Below, piece after piece: positions 42,786 through 54,760 of a stretch of 64,000 bases of DNA. Source of the DNA: Rubritepida flocculans DSM 14296 (GTDB taxonomy: Bacteria; Pseudomonadota; Alphaproteobacteria; Acetobacterales; Acetobacteraceae); assembly GCF_000425365.1 (NCBI RefSeq), contig NZ_AUDH01000005.1:62001-126000 (forward strand). The letters are read 5' to 3'. A program made the position numbers and the translations under genes. Below the pieces are notes generated by a model. The model was given only the letters and a program-made list of their open reading frames with translations, had not been told where the DNA came from and made no database searches. Within the stretch, counting starts at the first letter, position 1; each line of letters begins with the position of its first letter.

Positions 42786-42875
42786 TGGCGGGCAGGGTGG
42801 GATTCGAACCCACGGTGGGGTCGCCCCCACGGCGGTTTTCAAGACCGCTGCCTTAAACCGCTCGGCCACCTGCCC
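42786..42875 (-). tRNA. tRNA-Ser (anticodon TGA)
   Basis: On the complement the acceptor is GGGCAGG/CCTGCCC, the anticodon stem GCGGT/ACCGC and the loop CTTGAAA (anticodon TGA, reads UCA and related UCN codons). It has a long GC-rich variable arm, T-arm GTGGG-TTCGAAT-CCCAC, discriminator G and an encoded CCA. It is convergent with the tRNA-Ser(CGA) 870 bases away. The two share nearly identical 3' ends. Confidence 0.96.
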
Positions 42876-42982
42876 GCATCGCCCGGCACCCTGCTACGCG
42901 GCCACGCCCCGGGCAAGGCCCGCGCGCGGCGGGCAGGAGCCACACCGACCTGCGCGCCAGACGGCCCGCATGCCCGCCGCCC

Positions 42983-44863
42983 CTATTGGCCCGCCCCGCC
43001 GTGCAGGCGCAGCCCGGGCCGCAGCCGCGGCAGGAAATGCTCCACGAACCAGCGCTCATAGCCCATCTCGTGGGTGAAGGGCGCGCTCGCCTCGTCGTAA
43101 TAGTGCCCGCGCCCGCCCGGGCGGAAGAAGTCGAAGCCGAAGAGGCCCGCGGGCCGGCCGAGGATCAGCGAGGCCAGCACCACGCCGCGGAAACCCGTGG
43201 TCGCCCGCCCGTAGGAGAGCTCCGCGATCAGCCGCAGCAGCGAGGCGGGCAGGCCGGGCGGCAGCGGCCCCTCGACGTCGGGCGCCATCGCGTCGGTGCC
43301 CATGCTCGGCGTCGCGGCGTAGGCGGGATCGCGGCCGATCCGCTCCGCCAGCCGCGCCCTGTGCGCCGCGGCGAAGAGGATGAGATCCGTCCGGCGGCCC
43401 GCACCGGCCTCGAAGCCACGCAGCACCGGGTGATTGAACCGCAGCACGAGCGCATGCGCCTCGATGGCCTGGCCGGCCCCGCCGCCCGCCAGACATGGCG
43501 CATTGCCCACCAGCGCGACCGAGCGCGCGGCGCGGAGCCGCTCGATCCAGTCGAGGGCGGCGCGCGTCGGCGCGTGGCCGGCCGCCGCCGCCTCGGCGAG
43601 CTCGGCCAGCGCCGCCTCCCGCCGCGCGGCGATCGCCTCCTCGAGCGCCGACAGGTCCGGCGTCCGCCCCTCCGCCACGGCGCGCTGCGCGAGGTAGGAC
43701 AGGCGCGAGACCTCCCCGCCATGCCGCCCGTGGCGGGCCCAGTCCTCCTCGCGCGCCGCCGCATCGGGCGCGGCGCCGAGAAGGTCGAGCCGCAGCAGCT
43801 CGCGCGGATCGTCGAGCCCGCCCTTGGGCCAGATCTCCAGAAGGCGCAGCAGGGTTTCGCGCGCCGCGGCGAAGTCGCCCTCCCGGTTGAGGGTGAGCGC
43901 GAGGCAGCGCAGGGCGACGCGATGGGCCGGGAAATCCGCCAGAACCCGCCGGCAGGCCGCGCGCATCGCGCCGGGGTCGCGCCGGGCGAGGTCGAGGGCG
44001 GGCTGGCAGAAGGGCCCCTCCTCGGCGTGCAGCAGCCCCGCCAGCAGCGCCACACGGCCCTCGGCGTCGGCCGCGGCGAAGGCGCGCTCCCGCCCCGCAT
44101 GGCCGGAGGGGAGCCCGGCCGGCGGCGGCGGGGGCTGCGGCAGCGGGACGTGGCGGGCGATCAGCTCCGGCCGCGGGCGCGCCTCGAGCAGCGTGCGGAT
44201 CAGCTCGAAGCCGTCGCGGTCGTCCACATCGAGGCCGGTGATGCGCGGCAGCACGATGGGGTGGATGCGCCGGCCCATGAACAGCGCGCCGCGGCGGCGC
44301 CAGCCCTCATGGCGGAAGATTTCGAGGTTGAAGGGCTGATAGACCTTGGGGAACTCCGAGCGGCGCATCTTGGAGCGCGCCGGGTCCCAGCTCTCGAGCA
44401 GCGGCTCGAGCCAGCCCTCCTCGTTGATGCGGTGCAGCCGCGCATCGGCCTCGCTGACCAGCCGCACGGAATCCACCTCCGGGCGGTCGCGCAGCAGGGC
44501 GATGGCGGCGGTCACCGCCTCGGCGTCGCGGAAGGGGCAGGTGGGTTTCAGCCACACCCAGATGTCGGGCAGCGGAATGCCGTGGCGCGGCAGGGCGGCG
44601 TCGAGATCGGCGAGGATGTCCTCCTCCATCGCCGTGTCGCCGCTGGCCGCGGGCCCGCGCAGCCCCGGCGTCTCCGCCCCGTAGGCCCGGCCGATCGCCG
44701 CGTAGCGCGGGCTGTCGGTGGAGAGGAGGATGCGCTCCACCGGGATGCGGCGCGCGAAGGCCACCGAATAGGCCAGCATCGGATGGCCCGCGGCGGGGAG
44801 GATGTTCTTGTCCGGCAGGCCCTTGGAGCCGGAGCGGGCGGGGATCAGCGCATAGGCGCGCAT
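42983..44863 (-). CDS. acylneuraminate cytidylyltransferase fused to a GT29-like sialyltransferase
   Basis: Residues 1 to about 235 match NeuA-type CMP-nonulosonate synthetases: ALIPARSGSKGLPDKNI, LLSTDSPRYAAIG, VWLKPTCPFRDAEAV, LDVDDRDGFELIRTLL. A helical, TPR-like linker follows (about 265-430). From residue 447 the sequence resembles GT29: sialylmotif-L-like RSVALVGNAPCLAGGGAGQ continuing to VLRFNHP, motif-S-like ATTGFRGVVLASLILGRPAG with LFGFDFF, and the final HYYDE at 587-591. One protein could thus activate and transfer a sialic-acid-like sugar. No neuB/neuC is in the window, so the sugar is unknown. It lies 28 bases downstream of a lactamase-fold lipoprotein gene. Confidence 0.82.
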   Translation of the reverse strand: MRAYALIPARSGSKGLPDKNILPAAGHPMLAYSVAFARRIPVERILLSTDSPRYAAIGRAYGAETPGLRGPAASGDTAMEEDILADLDAALPRHGIPLPDIWVWLKPTCPFRDAEAVTAAIALLRDRPEVDSVRLVSEADARLHRINEEGWLEPLLESWDPARSKMRRSEFPKVYQPFNLEIFRHEGWRRRGALFMGRRIHPIVLPRITGLDVDDRDGFELIRTLLEARPRPELIARHVPLPQPPPPPAGLPSGHAGRERAFAAADAEGRVALLAGLLHAEEGPFCQPALDLARRDPGAMRAACRRVLADFPAHRVALRCLALTLNREGDFAAARETLLRLLEIWPKGGLDDPRELLRLDLLGAAPDAAAREEDWARHGRHGGEVSRLSYLAQRAVAEGRTPDLSALEEAIAARREAALAELAEAAAAGHAPTRAALDWIERLRAARSVALVGNAPCLAGGGAGQAIEAHALVLRFNHPVLRGFEAGAGRRTDLILFAAAHRARLAERIGRDPAYAATPSMGTDAMAPDVEGPLPPGLPASLLRLIAELSYGRATTGFRGVVLASLILGRPAGLFGFDFFRPGGRGHYYDEASAPFTHEMGYERWFVEHFLPRLRPGLRLHGGAGQ

Positions 44864-44891
44864 AGGCGTCTCCTCGATGGCGTGGGCGTCG

Positions 44892-45896
44892 TCACAGCGG
44901 GATCGTCTCCCCGATCCGCGGGACGATCACCGCCCCTTCCACCCCTGCGGCGCGGGCGGCGGCCAGGGTGGCGGCGGGCGCGGCCCCCGTGTCCTCCGCG
45001 CCCATGGGATAGGTGCCCCAGTGGACGAGCATCAGCCGCCGCGCCCGCAGGGCGCGGAAGCCCTCGATCACCTCCTCCGGGCTCGCGTGGTGGTGATGGT
45101 TGGTGCGGCGGGGCAGGAAGCCGCCCACGCCCATGACGGCGAGGTCGAAGGGCCCGTGCCGCGCGCCCGCCTCGGCGAAATGGGGGCCATGGGCGCTGTC
45201 GCCTGCGAGATAGACGCGCCGCCCGCCCCCCTCCAGCGCCCAGGCGCCCCAGAGCGTCACGCGATGGTCGAACAGCCCGCGCCCGGATTCGTGCCGCGCG
45301 GGCAGGAAGGTGGCCGTCAGCCCGCCCAGGCTGCGCGACTCGCCCCAGCCCAGCGCCTCGGTGCGCGCGCAGGCGATGCCGCGCAGCGCGGCGACGCGCA
45401 GCGGCAGCAGGCAGGCCACCCCCGGGCGGCGGGCCAGGGCGCGGAAGCTCGGCAGTTCCAGATGGTCGTAGTGGTCGTGGGTGAGGAGCAGGAGGTCGAA
45501 AGGCGGCAGGCTCTCGGCGTCGAAGGGCAGGGGAACCAGCCGGCGCGGGCCGAGGCCGGGCAGGGGCGAGGCGCGCTCGCCGAACACCGGGTCCACCACC
45601 GCCACCACGCCGCCGAGGCGCAGCATCACCCCGGCGTGCCCGAGCCACATCACCGCATCGCCGCCGCCCCGCCAGCCGGCGAGCGCCGCCTCCCGCCCCA
45701 GCGCCTCGGCCGCGGCGCTGGCGGGCACGGCGCCGAAGAGCAGGCGCAGCCGGTCGGCCAGGATGCCGTCGGGCGGCGGCTGCGAGAGGGCGGGGTGATG
45801 GTCCCCGTCGGGCGCGCAGCCCGCCGCGCCGAGCAGCAGCAGCGCCGCGGCGCGGCGGCCCATGGGGCGGGGGGAGGGGCGGTTCGGCCTCGTCAT
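44892..45896 (-). CDS. metallo-beta-lactamase fold lipoprotein
   Basis: The 334-residue protein has a lipoprotein signal (ALLLLGAAGC) if translated from ATG 45896. The body is a UlaG/NAPE-PLD-like metallo-hydrolase with LGHAGVMLRLGG, the metal motif THDHYDH, the bridging Asp in YLAGDSAHG and a late His in LVHWGTYP. Such enzymes cleave phosphodiesters or cyclic esters; an envelope lipid or glycan substrate is only a guess from location. It precedes the sialyltransferase fusion on the same strand and diverges from the GT39 gene. Confidence 0.85.
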   Translation of the reverse strand: MTRPNRPSPRPMGRRAAALLLLGAAGCAPDGDHHPALSQPPPDGILADRLRLLFGAVPASAAAEALGREAALAGWRGGGDAVMWLGHAGVMLRLGGVVAVVDPVFGERASPLPGLGPRRLVPLPFDAESLPPFDLLLLTHDHYDHLELPSFRALARRPGVACLLPLRVAALRGIACARTEALGWGESRSLGGLTATFLPARHESGRGLFDHRVTLWGAWALEGGGRRVYLAGDSAHGPHFAEAGARHGPFDLAVMGVGGFLPRRTNHHHHASPEEVIEGFRALRARRLMLVHWGTYPMGAEDTGAAPAATLAAARAAGVEGAVIVPRIGETIPL

Positions 45897-46023
45897 TCTG
45901 TGGCGGGAGCATAGCGGCCTTTCCCGCGCGGGCGGGAGGCGGGGGGTGGCGCCCGGGCCCCCGCCGTGCCACACAGCGCGCCGGCCCCGGCGCACGGGGC
46001 CCCCGCCCTTCCGCGTCAGGCCC

Positions 46024-47730
46024 ATGCCCGCCACCCTCGCCGCCTGGACGGAGCGGCACTCCGCCCGCCTCCTCGCCCTGCTCGCGCCCAGCCAGGCGCG
46101 GTCCATGCTGTTCGTGGCGCTGGTGGCGCTCGCGGCCTTCCTGCCCGGCTACGCCTCCCTCCCGCCGACCGACCGCGACGAGGGCCGCTACGTCATGGCG
46201 ACGCAGCAGATGCTGGAAAGCGGGGATTTCCTCGAGCCCCGCAACCAGGACCAGCCGCGCCACAAGCAGCCCGCGGGCATCTACTGGCTGCAGGCGGCCG
46301 CCGCGGCGCTGAGCGGGCAGGGGGCGGAGGCGCCCATCGGCGTGTTCCGCCTGCCCTCGCTGATCGGCGCGGTGGCCTCCGCCGCGCTCACGGTCTGGGC
46401 CTTCCGCCCGCTGGTGGGGCCGCAGGCGGCGCTGCTCGCGGGGCTGCTCCTCGCGCCCGCGCTGCTCCTGGGGGTGGAGGCGCGCATCGCCAAGACCGAT
46501 GCGGCGCTGCTGGCCTTCACCCTGCCCGCGCTCGGCGTGCTGGTCCGCGCCTTCCTCGACCCCGCGGCGGTGCGCGCCAGCCGGCTGCCCTGGCTGTTCT
46601 GGGGCGCGCTCGGGGCGGCGGCGATGATCAAGGGGCCCATCGGCCCGCTGGTCGTGCTGGTCGCGGCCGCCGCCCTCTGCCTGCCCGCGCGCGGGCTGCG
46701 CTGGCTCGGCGCGCTCAGGCCCTGGCCGGGGGTGCTGGCGATGCTGGGGCTCGCGCTGCCCTGGTATGTCGCCATCGCCATCGCCACGCGGGGCGAGTTC
46801 TTCGCCACCGCGCTCGGCTGGAACGCGCTCGGCAAGGTGACCGAGGCGCACCAGGGCCATGGCGGGCCGCCGGGCTTCTACAGCCTGCTCGTCTGGGTCA
46901 CCTTCTGGCCCGCCGCGCCCTTCCTCGCCGCCACGCTGTGGTGGGTCTGGCGCGAGCGGCGGCTGCGCGAGGTGCAGGCGCTGCTCTGCCTCATCCTGCC
47001 CGCCTGGGTGATGTTCGAGGCGGTGGCGACCAAGCTGCCCCACTACGTGCTGCCCACCTATCCGGCCCTGGCGGCGCTGGTGGCGCTGGCGCTGGGCGGG
47101 GCGGGGGCGATCGCCGGCGGCTGGTTCAGCGCGCTGATGCGCCAGGGTTTCTGGCTGCTGCCGGCGGCGATGGGGGGGCTCGGCCTCGGCGCCTTTCTCT
47201 GGTTCGAGGGCTGGCCGCCGCTGTGGGTTCCGCCCGCCTTCCTGCTCGCCGTCGGGCTCGGGGTGCTGGCGGGGGCGGTGGCGCGGCGCTCGGCCATGGC
47301 GGCGGTGCCGGTGGCGGCGGCGACGGCGCTCGCCACCTGGCTCGGCGCCTGGCCGCTGCTCGCGCGGGCGGAGACGATCTGGCTCTCGCCGCGCATGGCC
47401 GCGGCGGCCGCCCGCCACGCCCCCTGCGCCGAGACGCGGCTGGCCTCCGCCGGCTATCGCGAGCCGAGCCTCGTCGTCCTCACCCGGACGGACACGCTGC
47501 TGACCGATGGCGAGGGCGCGGCGCTCTTCCTCGCCGAGGGGCCCTGCCGCCTCGCCTTCGTGGACGCCGCCCCCGGCCGGCGCGGCCGCCCGGCGGAGGA
47601 GGCGGCCTTCCTCGCCACCCTCGCCGCCCGCGGCCTCGCGGCCGAGCCGCTGGCGATGGTGGAGGGGCGCAACCTCAATGGCGGGCGGCACCGCCGGATG
47701 GGCCTGTGGCGGCTGAAGGAGGGGGGATGA
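46024..47730 (+). CDS. GT39-family glycosyltransferase (ArnT-like)
   Basis: The 568-residue polytopic membrane protein has about eleven helices. Its GT-C signature near the N-terminus (SLPPTDRDEGRYVMATQQML) is followed by GDFLEPRNQDQPRHKQP. Family members transfer sugars from undecaprenyl carriers to lipid A or proteins in the periplasm. The next gene encodes a GT2 enzyme of the type that loads such carriers, as with ArnC/ArnT. Its stop overlaps that gene's start (ATGA). The sugar is not determinable. Confidence 0.88.
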   Translation: MPATLAAWTERHSARLLALLAPSQARSMLFVALVALAAFLPGYASLPPTDRDEGRYVMATQQMLESGDFLEPRNQDQPRHKQPAGIYWLQAAAAALSGQGAEAPIGVFRLPSLIGAVASAALTVWAFRPLVGPQAALLAGLLLAPALLLGVEARIAKTDAALLAFTLPALGVLVRAFLDPAAVRASRLPWLFWGALGAAAMIKGPIGPLVVLVAAAALCLPARGLRWLGALRPWPGVLAMLGLALPWYVAIAIATRGEFFATALGWNALGKVTEAHQGHGGPPGFYSLLVWVTFWPAAPFLAATLWWVWRERRLREVQALLCLILPAWVMFEAVATKLPHYVLPTYPALAALVALALGGAGAIAGGWFSALMRQGFWLLPAAMGGLGLGAFLWFEGWPPLWVPPAFLLAVGLGVLAGAVARRSAMAAVPVAAATALATWLGAWPLLARAETIWLSPRMAAAAARHAPCAETRLASAGYREPSLVVLTRTDTLLTDGEGAALFLAEGPCRLAFVDAAPGRRGRPAEEAAFLATLAARGLAAEPLAMVEGRNLNGGRHRRMGLWRLKEGG

Positions 47731-48455
47731 GCCCGCGCCTGTCGGTGATCCTTCCCGTCAAGGACGAGGCGGGCAACATCGCACCCCTGGTGGCGGAGAT
47801 CGAGGCGGCGCTCGCGCCCCTCCTGCCCTTCGAGATCGTCTATGTGGACGACGGCTCCACCGACGCCACCCGCGCCGAGATCGCGGCGCTGCGCCCGGGG
47901 CGGCCCCATCTGCGCCTGCTCGCGCTCGCGCGCAACGCGGGCAAGGCGGAGGCGCAGCGCGCCGGCGTGCGGGCCGCGCGCGGGGCGCTCGTGGTGCTGG
48001 TGGACGGGGACGGGCAGAACGACCCGGCCGAGATCCCCCGGCTTCTGGCCGCCTTCGAGGCCGCGCCGGGCGCGGGCCTCGCCATGGCCCAGCGGCGCGG
48101 GCGCAAGGACACGGGCTTCAAGCGCCTTCAGTCGCGCCTGGCCAACGCCATCCGCCAGGCCCTGCTGCGCGACGGCGCGCGCGATGCGGGCTGCGGCTTC
48201 GCCCTGCTGCCGCGCGAGACCTACCTCGCCCTGCCCGCCTTCGACGGGCTGCACCGCTTCCTGCCCGCGCTGGTGCGCCGCGAGGGGCTCGGCGTCGTGT
48301 TCGTCGAGGTGACGGACCGCCCGCGCGGGGCGGGGCGGTCGAAATACGGCTTCTTCGACCGGCTCTGGGTCGGCATCGACGACATGCTGGGCGTGATGTG
48401 GCTGCGCCGACGCCGGCGCGTGGTCGCGCGGGCCGAGGAAATCCCGCCCGGCTGA
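47727..48455 (+). CDS. GT2-family polyprenyl-phosphate glycosyltransferase
   Basis: The 242-residue GT-A enzyme resembles dolichol-phosphate mannosyltransferase/ArnC: SVILPVKDEAGNIAPLV, EIVYVDDGSTDATR, LARNAGKAEAQRAGVRAARG, the metal-binding VLVDGDGQNDP and DAGCGFALLPRE. RGAGRSKYGFFDRLWVGIDD is the usual end of the catalytic part. The two C-terminal membrane helices of ArnC are missing, so it is a short form. It likely makes the lipid-linked sugar used by the GT39 enzyme. Confidence 0.9.
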   Translation: MSPRLSVILPVKDEAGNIAPLVAEIEAALAPLLPFEIVYVDDGSTDATRAEIAALRPGRPHLRLLALARNAGKAEAQRAGVRAARGALVVLVDGDGQNDPAEIPRLLAAFEAAPGAGLAMAQRRGRKDTGFKRLQSRLANAIRQALLRDGARDAGCGFALLPRETYLALPAFDGLHRFLPALVRREGLGVVFVEVTDRPRGAGRSKYGFFDRLWVGIDDMLGVMWLRRRRRVVARAEEIPPG

Positions 48456-48512
48456 CCCCCGCCTTGCCGGGGCCTCGGCCTTGGTGCGACAAGGCCCGCA
48501 GGGGGCTGCCGC

Positions 48513-49997
48513 ATGTTCTGCCACGCGAGCGAGACGTTCCAGATGGGCCTCGACGCCCTGTCCCCGCTCGGCGAGGGGCGCTGGCTGCTCTGCGGCTGGG
48601 TGATGCATCCGCGCGGGGCGGAGGCGCGGCTGCAGTTCCACGGGGCCGATGGCCGCGCGCTGCCGCTGCTCTACGAGGGGCGGCATCGGCGCCCCGATGT
48701 CGCGGCCGGCGCGCCCGGGGCCGTCGGCCTCTACGGTTTCCACATCGTCTTCGCGGCGGGTGAGGAGGGGCGGGGCGCGCTGTCCCTGCGGGCCGAGGCG
48801 GGGGGGCAGGAGCTGCGCGCCCGGCTGGGCGATCCGGCCATCGGCGACGATCTCTCCCGCCTGCTGGCCGCGCGGCCCTGGGCGCGGACCATGGCGCTGC
48901 TCGCCGATGCGCGCCGGGCCGGGCCGCTTCTGGCGCCGCTGCTGGCGGGTGGCGCCACGCCGGGCGGCGCGCTGGCCGGATGGATCTCGGCCCTGCCGCC
49001 GGCCGGGCCCGAGGCCGCCCCGCTCGGGCCGGCCGCCGCGCTGGCCCTGGCGGCGAGCCCGGCGGGCGATCTCGGCCTCGCCCTGCGCCCGGCCGCGGGG
49101 CGCGGCCCCCTCCGCGCCGAGACGCTGCGGCTGGAGGCGCTGGCGCGCGCGCCGGAGGGCGGCCTCTCCGCCCTGCCCCTCGCGGAGTGGCGCCTCGAGT
49201 CGGTGGGCGAGGCGCTGCTCGGCTGGGGCCGGGTGGAGCGCCCGCCGGGGACGGCGCTGGACCTCGTCCTTCAGGCGGAGCTGGGCGCCGAGGAGCTCTG
49301 GGCCCGCAGCCGGGCCCCGGCGCGCGACCTCGTCGCGCTGTTCGACGGGCTGGCCGCCGCGGCCCTCGGCCCCGAGCCCGGACCCGAGGCCCGGGCCGCG
49401 CTGCGCCGGGCGCTGGGGCGGCTGCTCGCCCGGCGCGAGGCGGCGGCGTGCACGGCGCTGCAGGCCGGGCTGGGCGCGGCCGGGCCCGCCGGGGGCAGGC
49501 CGCTGCTGCTGCTGGGCGGCGTGGAGGAGGAGCTGGGGCTGCGGCTGATCGAGGCCGCCGTGCCCAGCCTCGCCGATGCCGCGCCGCCCCTGCTGCTCTT
49601 CGGCCCCGCTGCCGGCCTCGCCCAGCTCGCGCTGGAGGAGCGCGGGATTGAGGCGCGCGCGGGCGAGGAGGCGGAGCGCGCGCTGGAGGAGGCCGGGGCG
49701 CGGCCCGTCCGCGCGCTCAGCCTGCGCGAGCTGGCCGAGGCGATGATCGAGGAGCGGCTTGACGAGGCGCTGCATGGCGGCGCGCCCGGGCTGCCCGCGC
49801 GGGATGTGCTGCTGCTGCACCGGCTCGCCGGGCCCGGGCCGGACCCGGCGGCCACCCTGGCGCGGCGCGCGGGCCGGGAGGCGCTGCCCCACACCCCCGC
49901 CTGCCCGGACGCCGCCCCGCCGCTTGCGGCGCATCTCGAGGCGCTCTGGCGCGCCCTCCCGGCGCGGCACTCCTCCGGCAGGCCCGCCCATGGCTGA
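48513..49997 (+). CDS. uncharacterised 494-residue protein of the glycan locus
   Basis: I do not recognise a named family. The start MFCHASETFQMGLDALSPLGEGRWLLCGWV leads into a beta-rich domain of about 100 residues (LLCGWVMHPRGAEARLQFHG, VGLYGFHIVF). A long Ala/Leu/Arg-rich helical region follows, then a Rossmann-like stretch RPLLLLGGVEEELGLRLIEA. No signal peptide, membrane helix or catalytic motif is obvious. It lies between GT2 and GT4 genes and overlaps the latter by eight bases, so it is probably part of the same pathway. The N-terminal domain pattern occurs in proteins of other glycosyltransferase loci, as far as I can judge by eye. Confidence 0.7.
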   Translation: MFCHASETFQMGLDALSPLGEGRWLLCGWVMHPRGAEARLQFHGADGRALPLLYEGRHRRPDVAAGAPGAVGLYGFHIVFAAGEEGRGALSLRAEAGGQELRARLGDPAIGDDLSRLLAARPWARTMALLADARRAGPLLAPLLAGGATPGGALAGWISALPPAGPEAAPLGPAAALALAASPAGDLGLALRPAAGRGPLRAETLRLEALARAPEGGLSALPLAEWRLESVGEALLGWGRVERPPGTALDLVLQAELGAEELWARSRAPARDLVALFDGLAAAALGPEPGPEARAALRRALGRLLARREAAACTALQAGLGAAGPAGGRPLLLLGGVEEELGLRLIEAAVPSLADAAPPLLLFGPAAGLAQLALEERGIEARAGEEAERALEEAGARPVRALSLRELAEAMIEERLDEALHGGAPGLPARDVLLLHRLAGPGPDPAATLARRAGREALPHTPACPDAAPPLAAHLEALWRALPARHSSGRPAHG

Positions 49998-51237
49998 GCC
50001 GCGCCATGTCTGCATCATCGCCCACGCCCATCCCGAGCACTCAAAGGGCGGGGGCGAGACGGCCGCCTGGCGCCAGGCCGAGGCGCTGCGCGCGGCCGGC
50101 TGGCGCGTCAGCTTCGTCGCCGCCTCGCCCGAGCTCGGCGCGCAGGCCGCACGCCGCCCCACCCCGACCGTGTGGCGGCACGGGCCGGACGAGTATCTCT
50201 ACCCCTTCGACGGCATGACCCCCGACCGGCTGGCCTGGCGCGACGCCGGGCGGCGGCGGGCGCTGCTGGACTTCCTCGCGGGGCTCGGCGCCTCGGCCTA
50301 TCACTTCCACCACTACTGGCGCGTCGGCGCCGACCTGATCCTCGCGCTGCGCAAAGCCCGGCCCGAGGCGCGCCTCGTGATGACGCTGCACGAGATGCTC
50401 GCCATCTGCCTCAACCACGGCCAGATGGTCCGCACCCAGGGGGGGGAGCTCTGCGAGGAGGCGCGGCCGCTCTCCTGCCTCGGCTGCTTTCCGGAGGAGA
50501 CGATCGAGCGGCTCGTCATCCGCCGCGCCCTTCTGCTGCAGGCGCTGCGCGCCTGCGACCGCTTCGTCTATCCGAGCGCCTTCCTGCGCGCGCGCTACGA
50601 GGCCTGGGGGCTGCCCGCCGCGCGCGGCCTGGTGCTCGAGAACCCGCTGAGCGCGGCGATGATGGCCGCCCCGCGCGCCAGGGCCGATACGCCCGGGATC
50701 GAGACGCGCTTCGCCTTCTTCGGCCAGGCGACGCCCTTCAAGGGGCTGGACCTGCTGCTGAACGCCTTCGCCCTGGCGCGGGCCGAGCAGCCGGGGCTGC
50801 ACCTCACCCTCAACGGGGCCAGCGCCGAGGCCGTCGCCGCGTTGCATCCCGGGCTGGCGCCTCTGATCGAGGAGCTCGGCCCCGCGCTCGCCTTCGGCGG
50901 GCGCTACAGGGCGCGGGACGTGCTGCCGCTGATGCGCGCGGCCGGCTGGGTGGTCGTGCCCTCGCGCTGGTGGGAGAACTCGCCGATGGTGATCCAGGAG
51001 GCGAAGCGCGCCGGCACGCCGCTGATCGTGGCCGATGTGGGCGGGATGGCCGAGAAGGTGCGCCCCGGCCTCGACGGGCTGCATTTCCGCTTCGGCTCGG
51101 TGGCCGACCTCGCGCGCGCGCTGCTGGAGGCGGCCGATCCGGCGCGGCGCGCGGCCATCGCGGCGACGCTGGCCGACGCGACGGGCCCGGCCGAGTTCCT
51201 CGCGGCCATCGCGGAGTGCTACGGGGGCGAGGGTTAG
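49990..51237 (+). CDS. GT4-family glycosyltransferase
   Basis: The 415-residue GT-B enzyme has the N-terminal HVCIIAHAHPEHSKGGGETAAW loop and AYHFHHYWRVGADLIL. The C-terminal nucleotide-sugar domain shows RFAFFGQATPFKGLDLLLNA, GRYRARDVLPLMRAAG and the GT4 E-x7-E region in VPSRWWENSPMVIQEAKRAGTP. Cysteines in EEARPLSCLGCFPEETIE resemble the zinc-like insert of some capsule or LPS enzymes. It extends a surface polysaccharide in the cytoplasm; donor and acceptor are unknown. It is convergent with the 686-residue protein gene, overlapping by four bases. Confidence 0.9.
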   Translation: MAEPRHVCIIAHAHPEHSKGGGETAAWRQAEALRAAGWRVSFVAASPELGAQAARRPTPTVWRHGPDEYLYPFDGMTPDRLAWRDAGRRRALLDFLAGLGASAYHFHHYWRVGADLILALRKARPEARLVMTLHEMLAICLNHGQMVRTQGGELCEEARPLSCLGCFPEETIERLVIRRALLLQALRACDRFVYPSAFLRARYEAWGLPAARGLVLENPLSAAMMAAPRARADTPGIETRFAFFGQATPFKGLDLLLNAFALARAEQPGLHLTLNGASAEAVAALHPGLAPLIEELGPALAFGGRYRARDVLPLMRAAGWVVVPSRWWENSPMVIQEAKRAGTPLIVADVGGMAEKVRPGLDGLHFRFGSVADLARALLEAADPARRAAIAATLADATGPAEFLAAIAECYGGEG

Positions 51238-53294
51238 GCCGGCCGCTTGCCGTCGCCGCCGGCCTGCGCCTTGCGCGCGGCGATGCGCGCGAGCAGCGCC
51301 CGGGTGGGCCCGTGCAGCGCGCGCCAGTCCAGCGAGAAATTGGCGCGGAAGGGCTGGCCGTGGCGCGCGGCCTCCACCTCCCGCACCGCCTCCGGCTCGA
51401 GGAAGACCGCAGGCCGCGGCGCCTCGCGGAAGCGGGGGTTGTCGTAGAGCCGCCCGTCATAGCTCTCGGGGCGCAGCATCATCGGGTTGCTGTAGGCCAC
51501 GCCGGGCTTGTTCGCGATCCAGCGGCATTTGGCCATGCCCGCGCCGATGGGGGCGAGGAAGGCGTCCGCCGCCGCGCAGAGCGCGATGCTCTCGGCCATG
51601 GGCGCGCCCACCGCGTTCTCGACGCGCAGCGCGCCGCCGAGCCCGGCCTCGATCCGCCGGGCCAGCGCGCGCTCCTCCTCGAGCGACATGAACCCGTGGG
51701 TGGAGCCCGTCTCCGCCCCCGCGTTCATGCCGTCGAGCACCACGGCGAGGCCCGGGAACTCCTCGCCCAGCGCCCGCAGCAGGGCGATCAGCCCCTCCTC
51801 CTGCTCCACCCAGGCGCGGTTGCCGAGCCGCAGCGTGACGAGCAGGATCAGCGGCGCCTCGGCGCGCAGCGCGTTGAGGCGGCCGAGGAAGCCGCGGTCG
51901 CAGCCCCGGCGAGAGGCCCGGACGATGCGCCGGGCGAGGTCGTCGGGGATGAACTGGTCCCGCACCGTGACGAGCAGCAGCCGCCGCTCGTGCAGCATGC
52001 GGGCGAGTTCGCGCTCGTCCGCCGCCTCCAGCCGCCGCGCGGCGATGGCCTCGGCGTGCTCGGACCAGAGGGCCGCGAGATCGGGATAGATGCGCCCGCG
52101 GGCGAGGGCGACGAAGTGCGCCGGCGCCTCCGGCCCGACCAGCGAGAAGAGCCGCGCCCAGCCCGAGAGGTTGTTCCACAGCTCATGGCCCACATGGGCC
52201 GTCACCAGCGGGGCCACGGCCACCTGCCTCTCCTCGGCGGCGAGGTAGGCGCGCAGCGCATCGGCGCGGATCCAGGCCTGGGCCAGCGCCTCGGCGAGGC
52301 GCCGCCGCGCCGCCTCGGCCCCGCCGAAGGCGCGCTCGGGCCGGGCGGCGAGCAGCAGCAGCCCCGCGGCGGGGAAGAACCAGGCGGCGTCCTGCAGCGC
52401 GTGCACCCAGTGGCTCGCGGCCATCACGAGGCAGGGCGCGGGGTCGGCGCGATGGAGGAAGATGTCGGGGGCGAGGTTGTCGCGCAGCAGCCGCCGCTTG
52501 CCGGTGAAGGGGCAGAGGCAGGGCTTGCCGCCGAGGCGGACCGTCGCCGCCACATCGCGCATGCGCAGCGGGATCGCGGCGTCGCCGGCGAAGGGCAGCT
52601 CTGGCCAGTCGCGGAAACAGGCCTCGCCCAGCGCCTCCGCCCCCTCGGCGGCGAGATCGAGAAAGGCGGGCGACAGCCCCGCGCGCGCGGCGAGCGCCGC
52701 CCGCGCCTCGGGCGGAATGGCGCCGGCGTCCAGCATCTCGCAGGCCTCGGTCAGCCAGAGCAGGGCGAGGCTGTGCGGGGTGAGCCGGGCCTCGGGCGCC
52801 GCCCCGGCCTCCGGCGCCGCGCCCGAGAGCAAGGCGAGCATGCCCTGCCCGAAACGCGCCACCTCCTCGGCCAGCGGGGCGGGCAGGGGGGTCTCGAGCG
52901 GGCCCGGCGCCTGCCAGAGCGCGGCCTGGAGATCCCAGCGCGCGGCCTCGGGCAGCGCCGCTCCGGTGGCGAAGGCGGCGAGCAGCGCGTCGCGCGCCGC
53001 GCGCCCCTGCCCGCGGCCGAGCAGCGCGCGGCCCGCCTGGGCGCGAGGTCCGGGCAGCAGATCGGGGTGCGCGGCCAGGGCCGGCAGCGCCCCGGCCTCC
53101 TCCGCCGCGGCGGCGAGCGCGACGAGCCGCGCCTGCGCCGCCTTCTCGGCCGGCAGGGGCGGCGGGGCGGGGCCCTCGAGCAGGGCGAGGGCGGCCCCGG
53201 CCAGCGCCGCCGCGCCGGGATGCGCCTCCTCCGCGCCGAGCAGCAGGCGCAGCGCCTCGCCCCGCGCGCCCTGGGCGGCGAGGGAGCGCGCCAT
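51234..53294 (-). CDS. uncharacterised 686-residue protein with TPR-like N-terminus
   Basis: The N-terminal third is Ala/Leu-rich with TPR-like helices. The remainder is less biased and includes LGGKPCLCPFTGKRRLLRDN, FLHRADPAPCLVMAASHWVHAL, LVTAHVGHELWNNLSGWARL, VVLDGMNAGAETGSTHG and AAADAFLAPIGAGMAKCRWI. That last segment resembles the donor-side domain of GT61-like or O-fucosyltransferase-like glycosyltransferases, but I cannot assign a family. The start at ATG 53294 has no clear ribosome site; the frame is open about 60 bases further (LASFAPEELLAMARS), so an upstream non-ATG start is possible. The location points to surface-glycan biosynthesis. Confidence 0.72.
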   Translation of the reverse strand: MARSLAAQGARGEALRLLLGAEEAHPGAAALAGAALALLEGPAPPPLPAEKAAQARLVALAAAAEEAGALPALAAHPDLLPGPRAQAGRALLGRGQGRAARDALLAAFATGAALPEAARWDLQAALWQAPGPLETPLPAPLAEEVARFGQGMLALLSGAAPEAGAAPEARLTPHSLALLWLTEACEMLDAGAIPPEARAALAARAGLSPAFLDLAAEGAEALGEACFRDWPELPFAGDAAIPLRMRDVAATVRLGGKPCLCPFTGKRRLLRDNLAPDIFLHRADPAPCLVMAASHWVHALQDAAWFFPAAGLLLLAARPERAFGGAEAARRRLAEALAQAWIRADALRAYLAAEERQVAVAPLVTAHVGHELWNNLSGWARLFSLVGPEAPAHFVALARGRIYPDLAALWSEHAEAIAARRLEAADERELARMLHERRLLLVTVRDQFIPDDLARRIVRASRRGCDRGFLGRLNALRAEAPLILLVTLRLGNRAWVEQEEGLIALLRALGEEFPGLAVVLDGMNAGAETGSTHGFMSLEEERALARRIEAGLGGALRVENAVGAPMAESIALCAAADAFLAPIGAGMAKCRWIANKPGVAYSNPMMLRPESYDGRLYDNPRFREAPRPAVFLEPEAVREVEAARHGQPFRANFSLDWRALHGPTRALLARIAARKAQAGGDGKRPA

Positions 53295-53359
53295 GGCCAG
53301 AAGCTCCTCCGGGGCGAAGGAGGCGAGGCCGGCCGCGGACCCGGGCTCGGCCGGAATGG

Positions 53360-54760
53360 CTATTCCCCCGCCATCCGCGCGGCCAGCGGCGGCGCGCCCA
53401 GGCGCATCATCGCGTGCACATCGGCCGCGCGGTCGAGCCCCAGCACGGCGTCGGCGAGCTGGGCGGCGCGCTCCGCGCCCAGCACCGCGTCGGCCAGGCC
53501 GTGGAACTTCGCGCGCAGCTCCGCCTCGGTGAGGAAGTTGCCCGGCTCGCCCTTGGGCACCACGACCATCTTCGAGAACTCCCGCCCGCGCGCGCGGATG
53601 GTGAGCTTGCCCGACATGTTGCGCGGGAACTCGGCCTGCACCTCGGGATCCTCCACGCAGACCACCTTGCGCATCAGCGCGCGCAGCACCGGCTCCTCCA
53701 TCCGGGCGTAGCTGTCCCAGCCGAAATGGCCGAAGGCGAGGGCGCAGGCCACCACGAAGGGGCCGCTGAACTGCCCGTCCACCACGTTCTGCGGGTTCTG
53801 CTTGTAGGCGAGCGGCGCGCCGACGAGCAGCATGCCCTTGTTGGGCAGGCCCATGGTGACGGCCTCGATCTCCTCGGGCGCGAGGCCGTGCTCGGCGCGC
53901 AGCGCCAGCGCCGCGTCCACGCTCGCATGGCCGTAGCGGCAGGAGGGGTAGGGCTTCACCGCCGTCTCCATCAGCTCGTACTGCGCGCCGAGCTCCTGCA
54001 GCGCGCGCTCGGGCACCGGGTTCGGCGCGTAGGCGCGCAGGAAGCCGGCCTTGCCCTCCAGCGCCTCCGCCGCGCCGCGGAAGCCCTCGCGCGCCAGCAG
54101 CGCGGCCGAGAGCCCGGCCATGGCCGCCCAGCCCACCTGCCAGCGCTTGGTCCAGGCCCCGTTGGCGAGGAACTGCAGGCTGCCCGCAGCCTGGCTCAGC
54201 ACGATGCCGAAGGCGTCGGCCATGCGCGCGGCGTCGAGGCCCATCACCCGGCCCGCGGCCGCGGCCGCGCCGAAGGCACCGCAGGTGGCGGTGGGGTGGT
54301 AGCCGCGGTCGTAATGCTCGCCCGCGGGCAGGGCGAGGGCGAGGCGGTTCGTCACCTCATAGCCCGCGACCAGCGCGGCGATCGCCTCGCGGCCCGAGGC
54401 GCCAGTCATCTCGGCCGCGGCCAGCACGGCCGGGATCACCGGGGCGCCGGGATGCAGGCTGCCCGCGGCGTGGGTGTCGTCGAAGTCGAGGCTGTGGGCG
54501 AAGCAGCCGTTCAGCAGGGCCGCCCCGGCGGGGGCGAAGCGCGCCGCCTCGCCGAACACCGCCGCCTGGCCCTGGCCGAGGCCCATGGCGCGCACCGCGG
54601 CGATCAGCGGCGGGCTGCTCTCGGCCTCGGCGCGGCCGCGCACCATGTTGCCCACCAGGTCGAGCAGCAGGAAGCGGGCGCGGGCCTCCACCTCGGGGGG
54701 CAGATCGGCGTGCCGGATCGCGGCGGCATAGCGGGCGAAGCTCTCGGTCAGCGCGGCCAT
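53360..54760 (-). CDS. MmgE/PrpD family protein
   Basis: The 466-residue protein matches the MmgE/PrpD family, which includes 2-methylcitrate dehydratase and decarboxylases. Landmarks are FLLLDLVGNMVRGRAEAESS, NGCFAHSLDFDDTHAAGSLH, HPTATCGAFGAAAAAGRVMG, AVKPYPSCRYGHASVDAAL and the C-terminal RARGREFSKMVVVPKGEPGN. No methylcitrate-cycle gene is adjacent, so a substrate is not assigned. It diverges from the lytic transglycosylase gene. Confidence 0.88.
   Translation of the reverse strand: MAALTESFARYAAAIRHADLPPEVEARARFLLLDLVGNMVRGRAEAESSPPLIAAVRAMGLGQGQAAVFGEAARFAPAGAALLNGCFAHSLDFDDTHAAGSLHPGAPVIPAVLAAAEMTGASGREAIAALVAGYEVTNRLALALPAGEHYDRGYHPTATCGAFGAAAAAGRVMGLDAARMADAFGIVLSQAAGSLQFLANGAWTKRWQVGWAAMAGLSAALLAREGFRGAAEALEGKAGFLRAYAPNPVPERALQELGAQYELMETAVKPYPSCRYGHASVDAALALRAEHGLAPEEIEAVTMGLPNKGMLLVGAPLAYKQNPQNVVDGQFSGPFVVACALAFGHFGWDSYARMEEPVLRALMRKVVCVEDPEVQAEFPRNMSGKLTIRARGREFSKMVVVPKGEPGNFLTEAELRAKFHGLADAVLGAERAAQLADAVLGLDRAADVHAMMRLGAPPLAARMAGE

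Follow-up and report, generated by a model that had tools for sequence, protein, structure and literature searches.

The minus strand of the window, which is the whole stretch of 64,000 nucleotides analysed here, encodes a protein of 626 amino acids at 42983..44863, in a frame that opens with ATG and closes with TAG. The original prediction had these coordinates exactly, and its strand has been corrected to minus. The frame is considered coding because the GC content at its three codon positions is 0.79/0.54/0.94, in DNA of 73% GC. An opposite-strand open reading frame of 716 amino acids (window 42986-45136, plus strand) looks like a high-GC shadow of the fused gene. Along the 626-residue chain, residues 1-240 form a NeuA-type CTP_transf_3 domain, residues 241-439 a helical linker resembling TPR repeats and residues 440-626 a GT29 domain.

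The gene stands in a glycan block that is variable and adjoins a tRNA gene. The block (42886..53363, ~10.5 kb) lies between tRNA-Ser(TGA) (42786..42875, minus strand), which forms its left edge, and the gene at 53360-54760. It is absent from three relatives of the same genus (G124, G044 and G175), where 38, 44 and 809 bp, respectively, separate the tRNA gene from the counterpart of the 53360-54760 gene, in the same order and orientation. No convincing direct repeats were found at the block edges (42886-53363). A gene for a metallo-beta-lactamase-fold hydrolase (44892..45896, minus strand; PF12706 at 1.2e-33 for the longer open reading frame 44892-46106) is located 28 bp upstream of the fused gene on the same strand and is a possible operon partner. 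As predicted, glycosyltransferase genes adjoin: an ArnT/PMT-like membrane glycosyltransferase (46024..47730, plus strand; PF02366/PF13231, with the ArnT model at 52.8 bits, far below its cut-off), a GT2-like enzyme of the polyprenyl-phosphate-sugar type (47706..48455, plus strand; all matches below their cut-offs) and a GT4 enzyme recognised by family match (49990..51237, plus strand). The GT4 protein has blastp relatives near GT29 genes in two other genomes (37% identity in G195, 31% in G190), which is weak support because GT4 is common. Also in the block are a 494-aa protein that matched no family and a 686-aa protein that matches PF04577 at E 0.2 only. Two of the three genus relatives carry counterparts of segments 46108-48432 and 49911-51203 at other places.

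The two catalytic halves and their linker

The N-terminal part (residues 1-240; 44144..44863, minus strand) is recognised as a CMP-ulosonate synthetase domain of the NeuA/PseF type by Pfam, PDB and Foldseek matches. Searched with the whole protein, PF02348 covers residues 5-140 at 55.5 bits (cut-off 22.6), and both the nucleotide and the DxD motifs of the type are present. The predicted NeuA motif was found at the N-terminus as IPARSGSKGLPDKN (Ile7 to Asn20, residues 7-20; 44804..44845, minus strand), where it aligns with PDB entries 9ftb and 6ifd. These are the best PDB matches of this half, namely the Aeromonas CMP-Pse5Ac7Ac synthetase (9ftb, 5.3e-16) and the Vibrio NeuA (6ifd, 2.4e-14). The PseF equivalog model TIGR03584 scores 77.8 bits, under its cut-off of 205.7, and the KdsB models reach at most 24.3 bits against cut-offs of 155-281. 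By these sequence scores, the synthetase half resembles NeuA/PseF more than KdsB. A Foldseek search with the whole-chain model lists CMP-NulO and CMP-Kdo synthetases as its first 23 matches, followed at rank 24 by ST6GalNAc2.

The presumed metal-binding residues D212-x-D214 (44222..44230, minus strand) align with Asp209/Asp211 of the Neisseria meningitidis CMP-Neu5Ac synthetase (NmCSS), to which the accessible text of PMC2901514 assigns a metal role. Motifs and fold are thus common to the window protein and the CMP-Neu5Ac and CMP-Pse synthetases (NeuA, PseF; 6ifd, 9ftb). However, the window protein differs from them in its fused C-terminus, in a YQPFN loop, which has lost the NG of the YQPNG loop of 6ifd, and in Lys106 (44546..44548, minus strand), where 6ifd has Gln and 9ftb has Tyr. 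Lys106 occupies the sugar-contact position of Gln104 in the meningococcal enzyme; Gln104 matters in Neu5Ac binding and corresponds to Gln98 of KdsB (PMC2901514). Lysine is found here in five of the six subfamily rows (G000, which is the window's own genome, G095a, G668, G087 and L121), and the sixth row, the degenerate G095b, has Asp. Lys106 would point to a different or unusual sugar.

The linker (43547..44143, minus strand) comprises a proline-rich joint and a helical, TPR-like stretch. The original description of it as TPR-like is in line with the helical model and with a profile of the relatives, which matches designed TPR proteins; in the single protein, each TPR model scores 16.6 bits or less and stays under its own cut-off (PF13424, 16.4 bits). 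The AlphaFold model of the whole chain has a mean pLDDT of 78.6 (15-row alignment) and that of the GT29 domain alone 73.2 (4-row alignment); the joint at residues 226-247 falls below 50, and parts of the N-domain are also of low confidence.

The C-terminal part (residues 440-626; 42986..43546, minus strand) is assigned to GT29 by PF00777, by profile matches to GT29 structures and by predicted fold. PF00777 covers residues 446-499 of the whole protein at 44.6 bits (cut-off 23) and is also above cut-off in all ten relatives scanned. A profile built from seven relatives, the window protein among them (A2), matches ST8Sia3 (3e-15), ST3Gal1 (9.4e-15), ST6GalNAc2 (3.3e-13) and ST6Gal1 (2e-8) in the PDB, and its alignment with ST8Sia3 includes motifs L, S and III. 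Alignments place sialylmotif L at residues 449-496 (43376..43519, minus strand) and sialylmotif S at residues 551-580 (43124..43213, minus strand), as predicted. The HYYDE element had been taken for motif VS; by the usual sialylmotif definitions, H587YYD590 (43094..43105, minus strand) is motif III, and VS is H598-x4-E603 (43055..43072, minus strand), because H598 and E603 are invariant in all 14 rows of the GT29 alignment. The same holds for R475, N477, T555, G557 and G576 in these 14 domains, which include the window's and leave out G606, G755, G777 and the non-family sequences L067, L068, L140, L141 and L142. All four sialylmotifs are therefore present, with the catalytic-type His and Glu, and His598 is presumably the catalytic base.

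Foldseek with the GT29-domain model returned 6apl first (4.7e-6, TMq 0.63), with 2wnb and 5bo9 among the next matches; ranks 1-28 are all GT29 entries, and the GT42 enzyme CstII follows at rank 29. The model thus predicts a GT-A variant fold for this half. In single-sequence scans the PF00777 match is confined to the motif L region, as might be expected of a Rossmann look-alike outside GT29. However, the alignment of L, S and III to ST8Sia3, the 14 of 14 rows with H598/E603 and the unbroken run of GT29 entries in the fold search leave that explanation scarcely credible. Both a GT29 match (Pfam, whole protein) and the corresponding fold (Foldseek, domain model) were found, and the predicted GT29 assignment stands. 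Pfam scores, profile and predicted fold also agree on the union that had been proposed, and on sequence and model grounds the protein is read as a NeuA-type synthetase and a GT29 transferase domain in one chain.

Fused, split and decayed relatives

The window's family was searched in 397 genomes, nine of which contain N-domain matches at E <=1e-10. The close NeuA subfamily (at least 50% identity) occupies five places in four of these genomes (G000, G095 twice, G087 and G668); the remaining five matching genomes show 25-41% identity. At four of the five places the synthetase is fused to or overlaps a GT29 gene, and at the fifth (G668) the contig ends within the TPR linker that the synthetase gene overlaps. 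The genome survey that had been proposed did recover the fusion, in G000 and in both genes of G095, a member of another genus. G087 has a split pair in which the end of the synthetase gene shares 4 bp with the GTG start of the GT29 gene, and a second split pair, found in a metagenome-assembled genome (L121) by a scan of genome contigs, has a 4-bp overlap with the ATG of the GT29 gene. In G668 an intact 246-aa synthetase likewise overlaps the next gene start by 4 bp, with just the TPR part visible before the contig ends. Across these genomes the pairing of synthetase and GT29 is conserved.

The split forms with 4-bp overlaps might suggest that the fused frame is an assembly or frameshift artefact uniting two overlapping genes. 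This is very improbable, given that the fused frame also occurs twice in G095, a separate genus and assembly, and that the G000 and G095a proteins align end to end at 69% identity. A tree of the GT29 domains (14 rows) has good support for two of its 11 inner branches and pairs G000 with G095a (87/93); G095b was not placed with them, so one and two fusion events are not separable by this tree.

The dN/dS ratios of the synthetase (Nei-Gojobori) are 0.21 for G000/G095a, 0.36 for G000/G668 and 0.10 for G087/L121, which for these pairs indicates that the NeuA domain is under purifying selection; comparisons with G095b give 0.54-0.64. G095b is a second fusion paralogue (L054:5900-7732) in which the NeuA motif has decayed (VQSFSGSNGFLNEN) and the invariant GT29 residues are kept. 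Each of the split synthetase genes, in G087 and L121, carries a premature stop at a differing position. Since dN/dS is low, the stops are suggested to be recent or sequencing errors; repeated decay of the synthetase with retention of GT29 is possible in these two. If the N-domain were a scaffold and no longer a working enzyme, the GT29 domain taking CMP-Kdo from KdsB, then the loss of the NeuA motif from G095b with its GT29 retained, the stops inside the NeuA genes of G087 and L121, and Lys106 would all be accommodated. However, the nucleotide and metal motifs are intact in G000, G095a and G668, with dN/dS of 0.21-0.36 among these forms, and a scaffold role is accordingly judged unlikely.

Several further arrangements were seen. 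In G095, a short GT29 remnant (L055:10580-10810) immediately precedes the intact fusion and is close to uvrA, and a lone GT29 gene overlaps the end of uvrA in G774. What we take from its sequence to be uvrA adjoins or is near the synthetase/GT29 pair in G095, G087 and G668. In G612 (L113:5578-8271) and G650 (L114:6795-9524), GT29 forms the end of ~900-aa proteins with long N-terminal parts.

Among 13 other genomes of the genus, no match to either part was found at the limits used, with four candidates scored per genome in the A2 search and at most seven in the N-domain search; because of these numbers, absences in the family genome searches are no proof. PF00777 matches occur in 3/387 genomes of the class and 4/190 of the phylum, the window's genome being counted both times, and in none of 14 control genomes. 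In blastp on the non-family GT29 matches (L067, L068, L140, L141 and L142) no synthetase fused to GT29 was found; in L142 one lies ~2 kb from the GT29 match. Plasmid carriage was considered and rejected: tblastn of the fusion against 72,556 plasmids matched 59 records, none covering 80% of the fusion, and among the matches listed (15 of the 59 records) the NeuA part alone matched.

Proposed reaction and donor sugar

With both domains above their Pfam cut-offs and the catalytic residues of both halves present, the protein is probably a two-step enzyme, that is, a CMP-ulosonate synthetase and GT29 transferase in one chain. The whole chain would presumably be cytosolic. The N-domain would use CTP and a free ulosonic (2-keto-3-deoxy) acid to form CMP-ulosonate, and the helical linker would keep the synthetase adjacent to the GT29 domain, an arrangement in which channelling may occur. 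The GT29 domain would then act as an inverting transferase, with His598 as base, and place the sugar on a surface-glycan acceptor. The sugar itself is probably not a product of NeuB in the source cell.

The predicted lack of neuB nearby was borne out and extends further, as PF03102 has no match near the gene or elsewhere in the G000 assembly (99% complete); the same profile matches nine of 14 control genomes. NeuB, taken as the genomic sign of a sialylation pathway, thus has no match in G000. The genome does carry KdsA, KdsB, KdsD (L073, 75% identical to KdsD of G195) and a WaaA-family gene. Of the four family genomes that carry the subfamily, three gave no NeuB match (G000, 99% complete; G087, 84%; G668, 100%); G095, which bears the closest fusion, has NeuB.

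For GT29 more widely, A2 matches occur in 33 family genomes, of which 15, where the match reaches the GT29 region, were counted; G668 was set aside, as were 17 others whose matches lie wholly or chiefly in the TPR part. NeuB is present in six of the 15 (G095, G612, G650, G755, G762 and G774). It was not shown in the other nine: G000, G087, G161, G190 and G195 were queried by name, and G606, G672, G737 and G777 (like G668) do not appear in the results of a 397-genome NeuB scan, assumed to cover the same 397. GT29 as a group therefore accompanies NeuB above chance (6/15 vs 15/382 other genomes, one of these 15, G683, being below the family cut-off; Fisher p 3.8e-5, uncorrected for kinship).

Gene neighbourhoods vary. 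G195 has no NeuB match; its kdsD is located 110 bp upstream of the GT29 gene (L057:6865-9290), and kdsA-kdsB are ~6 kb from the latter, beyond GT2, GT4 and pyruvyltransferase-like genes; this link may be a chance insertion into a Kdo operon. On its GT29 contig, G612 also carries NeuA and NeuB, at a distance of ~6-7 kb from GT29. A GT29-like protein in another class of the phylum (L142:1142-8387, G812; 25.1 bits vs the PF00777 cut-off of 23) has NeuA and NeuB ~2.2 and 4.6 kb off. The H1 and H4 neighbourhoods gave no pointer to the sugar. Kdo as the donor of every GT29 in the family can be ruled out as a general rule, because GT29 is found near NeuA-NeuB in G612 and G812.

Two further loci with joined enzymes were observed. 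In G175, from the window's genus, KdsA is followed by a 437-aa cytidylyltransferase joined to an RraA/HMG-aldolase-like domain (L060:4554-6850). In G095, a 596-aa frame unites NeuB-like and cytidylyltransferase matches (L069:14925-16715), with a second NeuB and an apparent aminotransferase and sugar dehydratase nearby.

The sialic or nonulosonic acid of the original prediction is thus partly supported, by GT29 genes near NeuA/NeuB elsewhere, but sialic acid is weakened as the donor in the window protein because no NeuB match was found, and KdsA, KdsB and KdsD are present. A true sialyltransferase fusion, using a nonulosonic acid of the Neu5Ac, Kdn, Leg or Pse type that is taken up or made by a missed NeuB, is a serious though rather doubtful possibility. 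It would suit the NeuA/PseF-type synthetase, the NeuB of G095, the NeuB enrichment among GT29 genomes and the neighbours in G612 and G812; it sits poorly with the missing NeuB in G000, G087 and G668, and with Lys106 and the altered loop, which are unlike 6ifd. Kdo is tentatively placed first among the donors, a scavenged or NeuB-independent nonulosonate next and an unusual ulosonate last. Against Kdo count the NeuA/PseF-like rather than KdsB-like synthetase, and Lys106, at a position where Neu5Ac and Kdo synthetases alike have Gln. Two published cases bear on Kdo: the plant GT29 RCKT1 has been proposed to transfer Kdo from CMP-Kdo to RG-II (PMC11288761), and in gonococci the sialyltransferase Lst can add Kdo (PMC8092323).

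Relation to known enzymes and significance

Both domains are already known, as are bacterial GT29 from sequence surveys and a natural NeuA-transferase joining in Campylobacter jejuni, and the original interpretation as a whole is partly supported. The window protein shares sialylmotifs L, S, III and VS and the predicted fold with the GT29 sialyltransferases ST3Gal1, ST6Gal1, ST6GalNAc2 and ST8Sia3. Unlike the animal enzymes, its chain opens with a synthetase domain and so would lack an N-terminal membrane anchor, and its GT29 domain has a single Cys (Cys457), so that their disulphide between motifs L and S is not possible. This bond is not defining for bacterial GT29, because GT29 sequences from bacteria, mostly alphaproteobacterial and without the conserved disulphide, have been reported in silico, with trees that could not predict their function, in a paper whose accessible text mentions no fusion (PMC5811610). 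The original remark that GT29 is best known from eukaryotes holds, but bacterial members had thus been reported.

Arabidopsis RCKT1/MGP2 is likewise a GT29 enzyme where sialic acid synthesis is little or absent, but it is a Golgi enzyme acting on RG-II, and a synthetase fusion is not mentioned in the accessible part of its description (PMC11288761). Among fusions, laboratory-made CMP-Neu5Ac synthetase/sialyltransferase proteins exist, but these are engineered; they hold the same two activities per chain with a transferase of another family. C. jejuni cgtA/neuA1 is a two-domain protein. This product of orf5/10 is, like the window protein, a natural joining of NeuA and a glycosyltransferase, but its transferase adds GalNAc rather than a CMP-activated sugar, according to the accessible text (PMC7248181). 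No report of a synthetase/GT29 fusion was found among the open-access PMC papers listed, covered mostly at the level of titles and abstract openings.

Eukaryotic sialyltransferases are classed in GT29, and bacterial GT29 are without an assigned function. A GT29 enzyme with its own synthetase gives a direct readout of the donor, as the sugar of the first half should be that of the second, and glycan synthesis could draw on the fusion as an enzyme coupled by nature. It is proposed, tentatively, that this natural one-chain synthetase/GT29 moves Kdo, or an undescribed ulosonic acid recognised via Lys106, in bacteria without NeuB. If this Kdo or new-ulosonate reading is true, bacterial GT29 would include non-sialic transferases, as has been proposed for plants, and one could then ask which of these two GT29 activities, sialylation or Kdo transfer, arose first.
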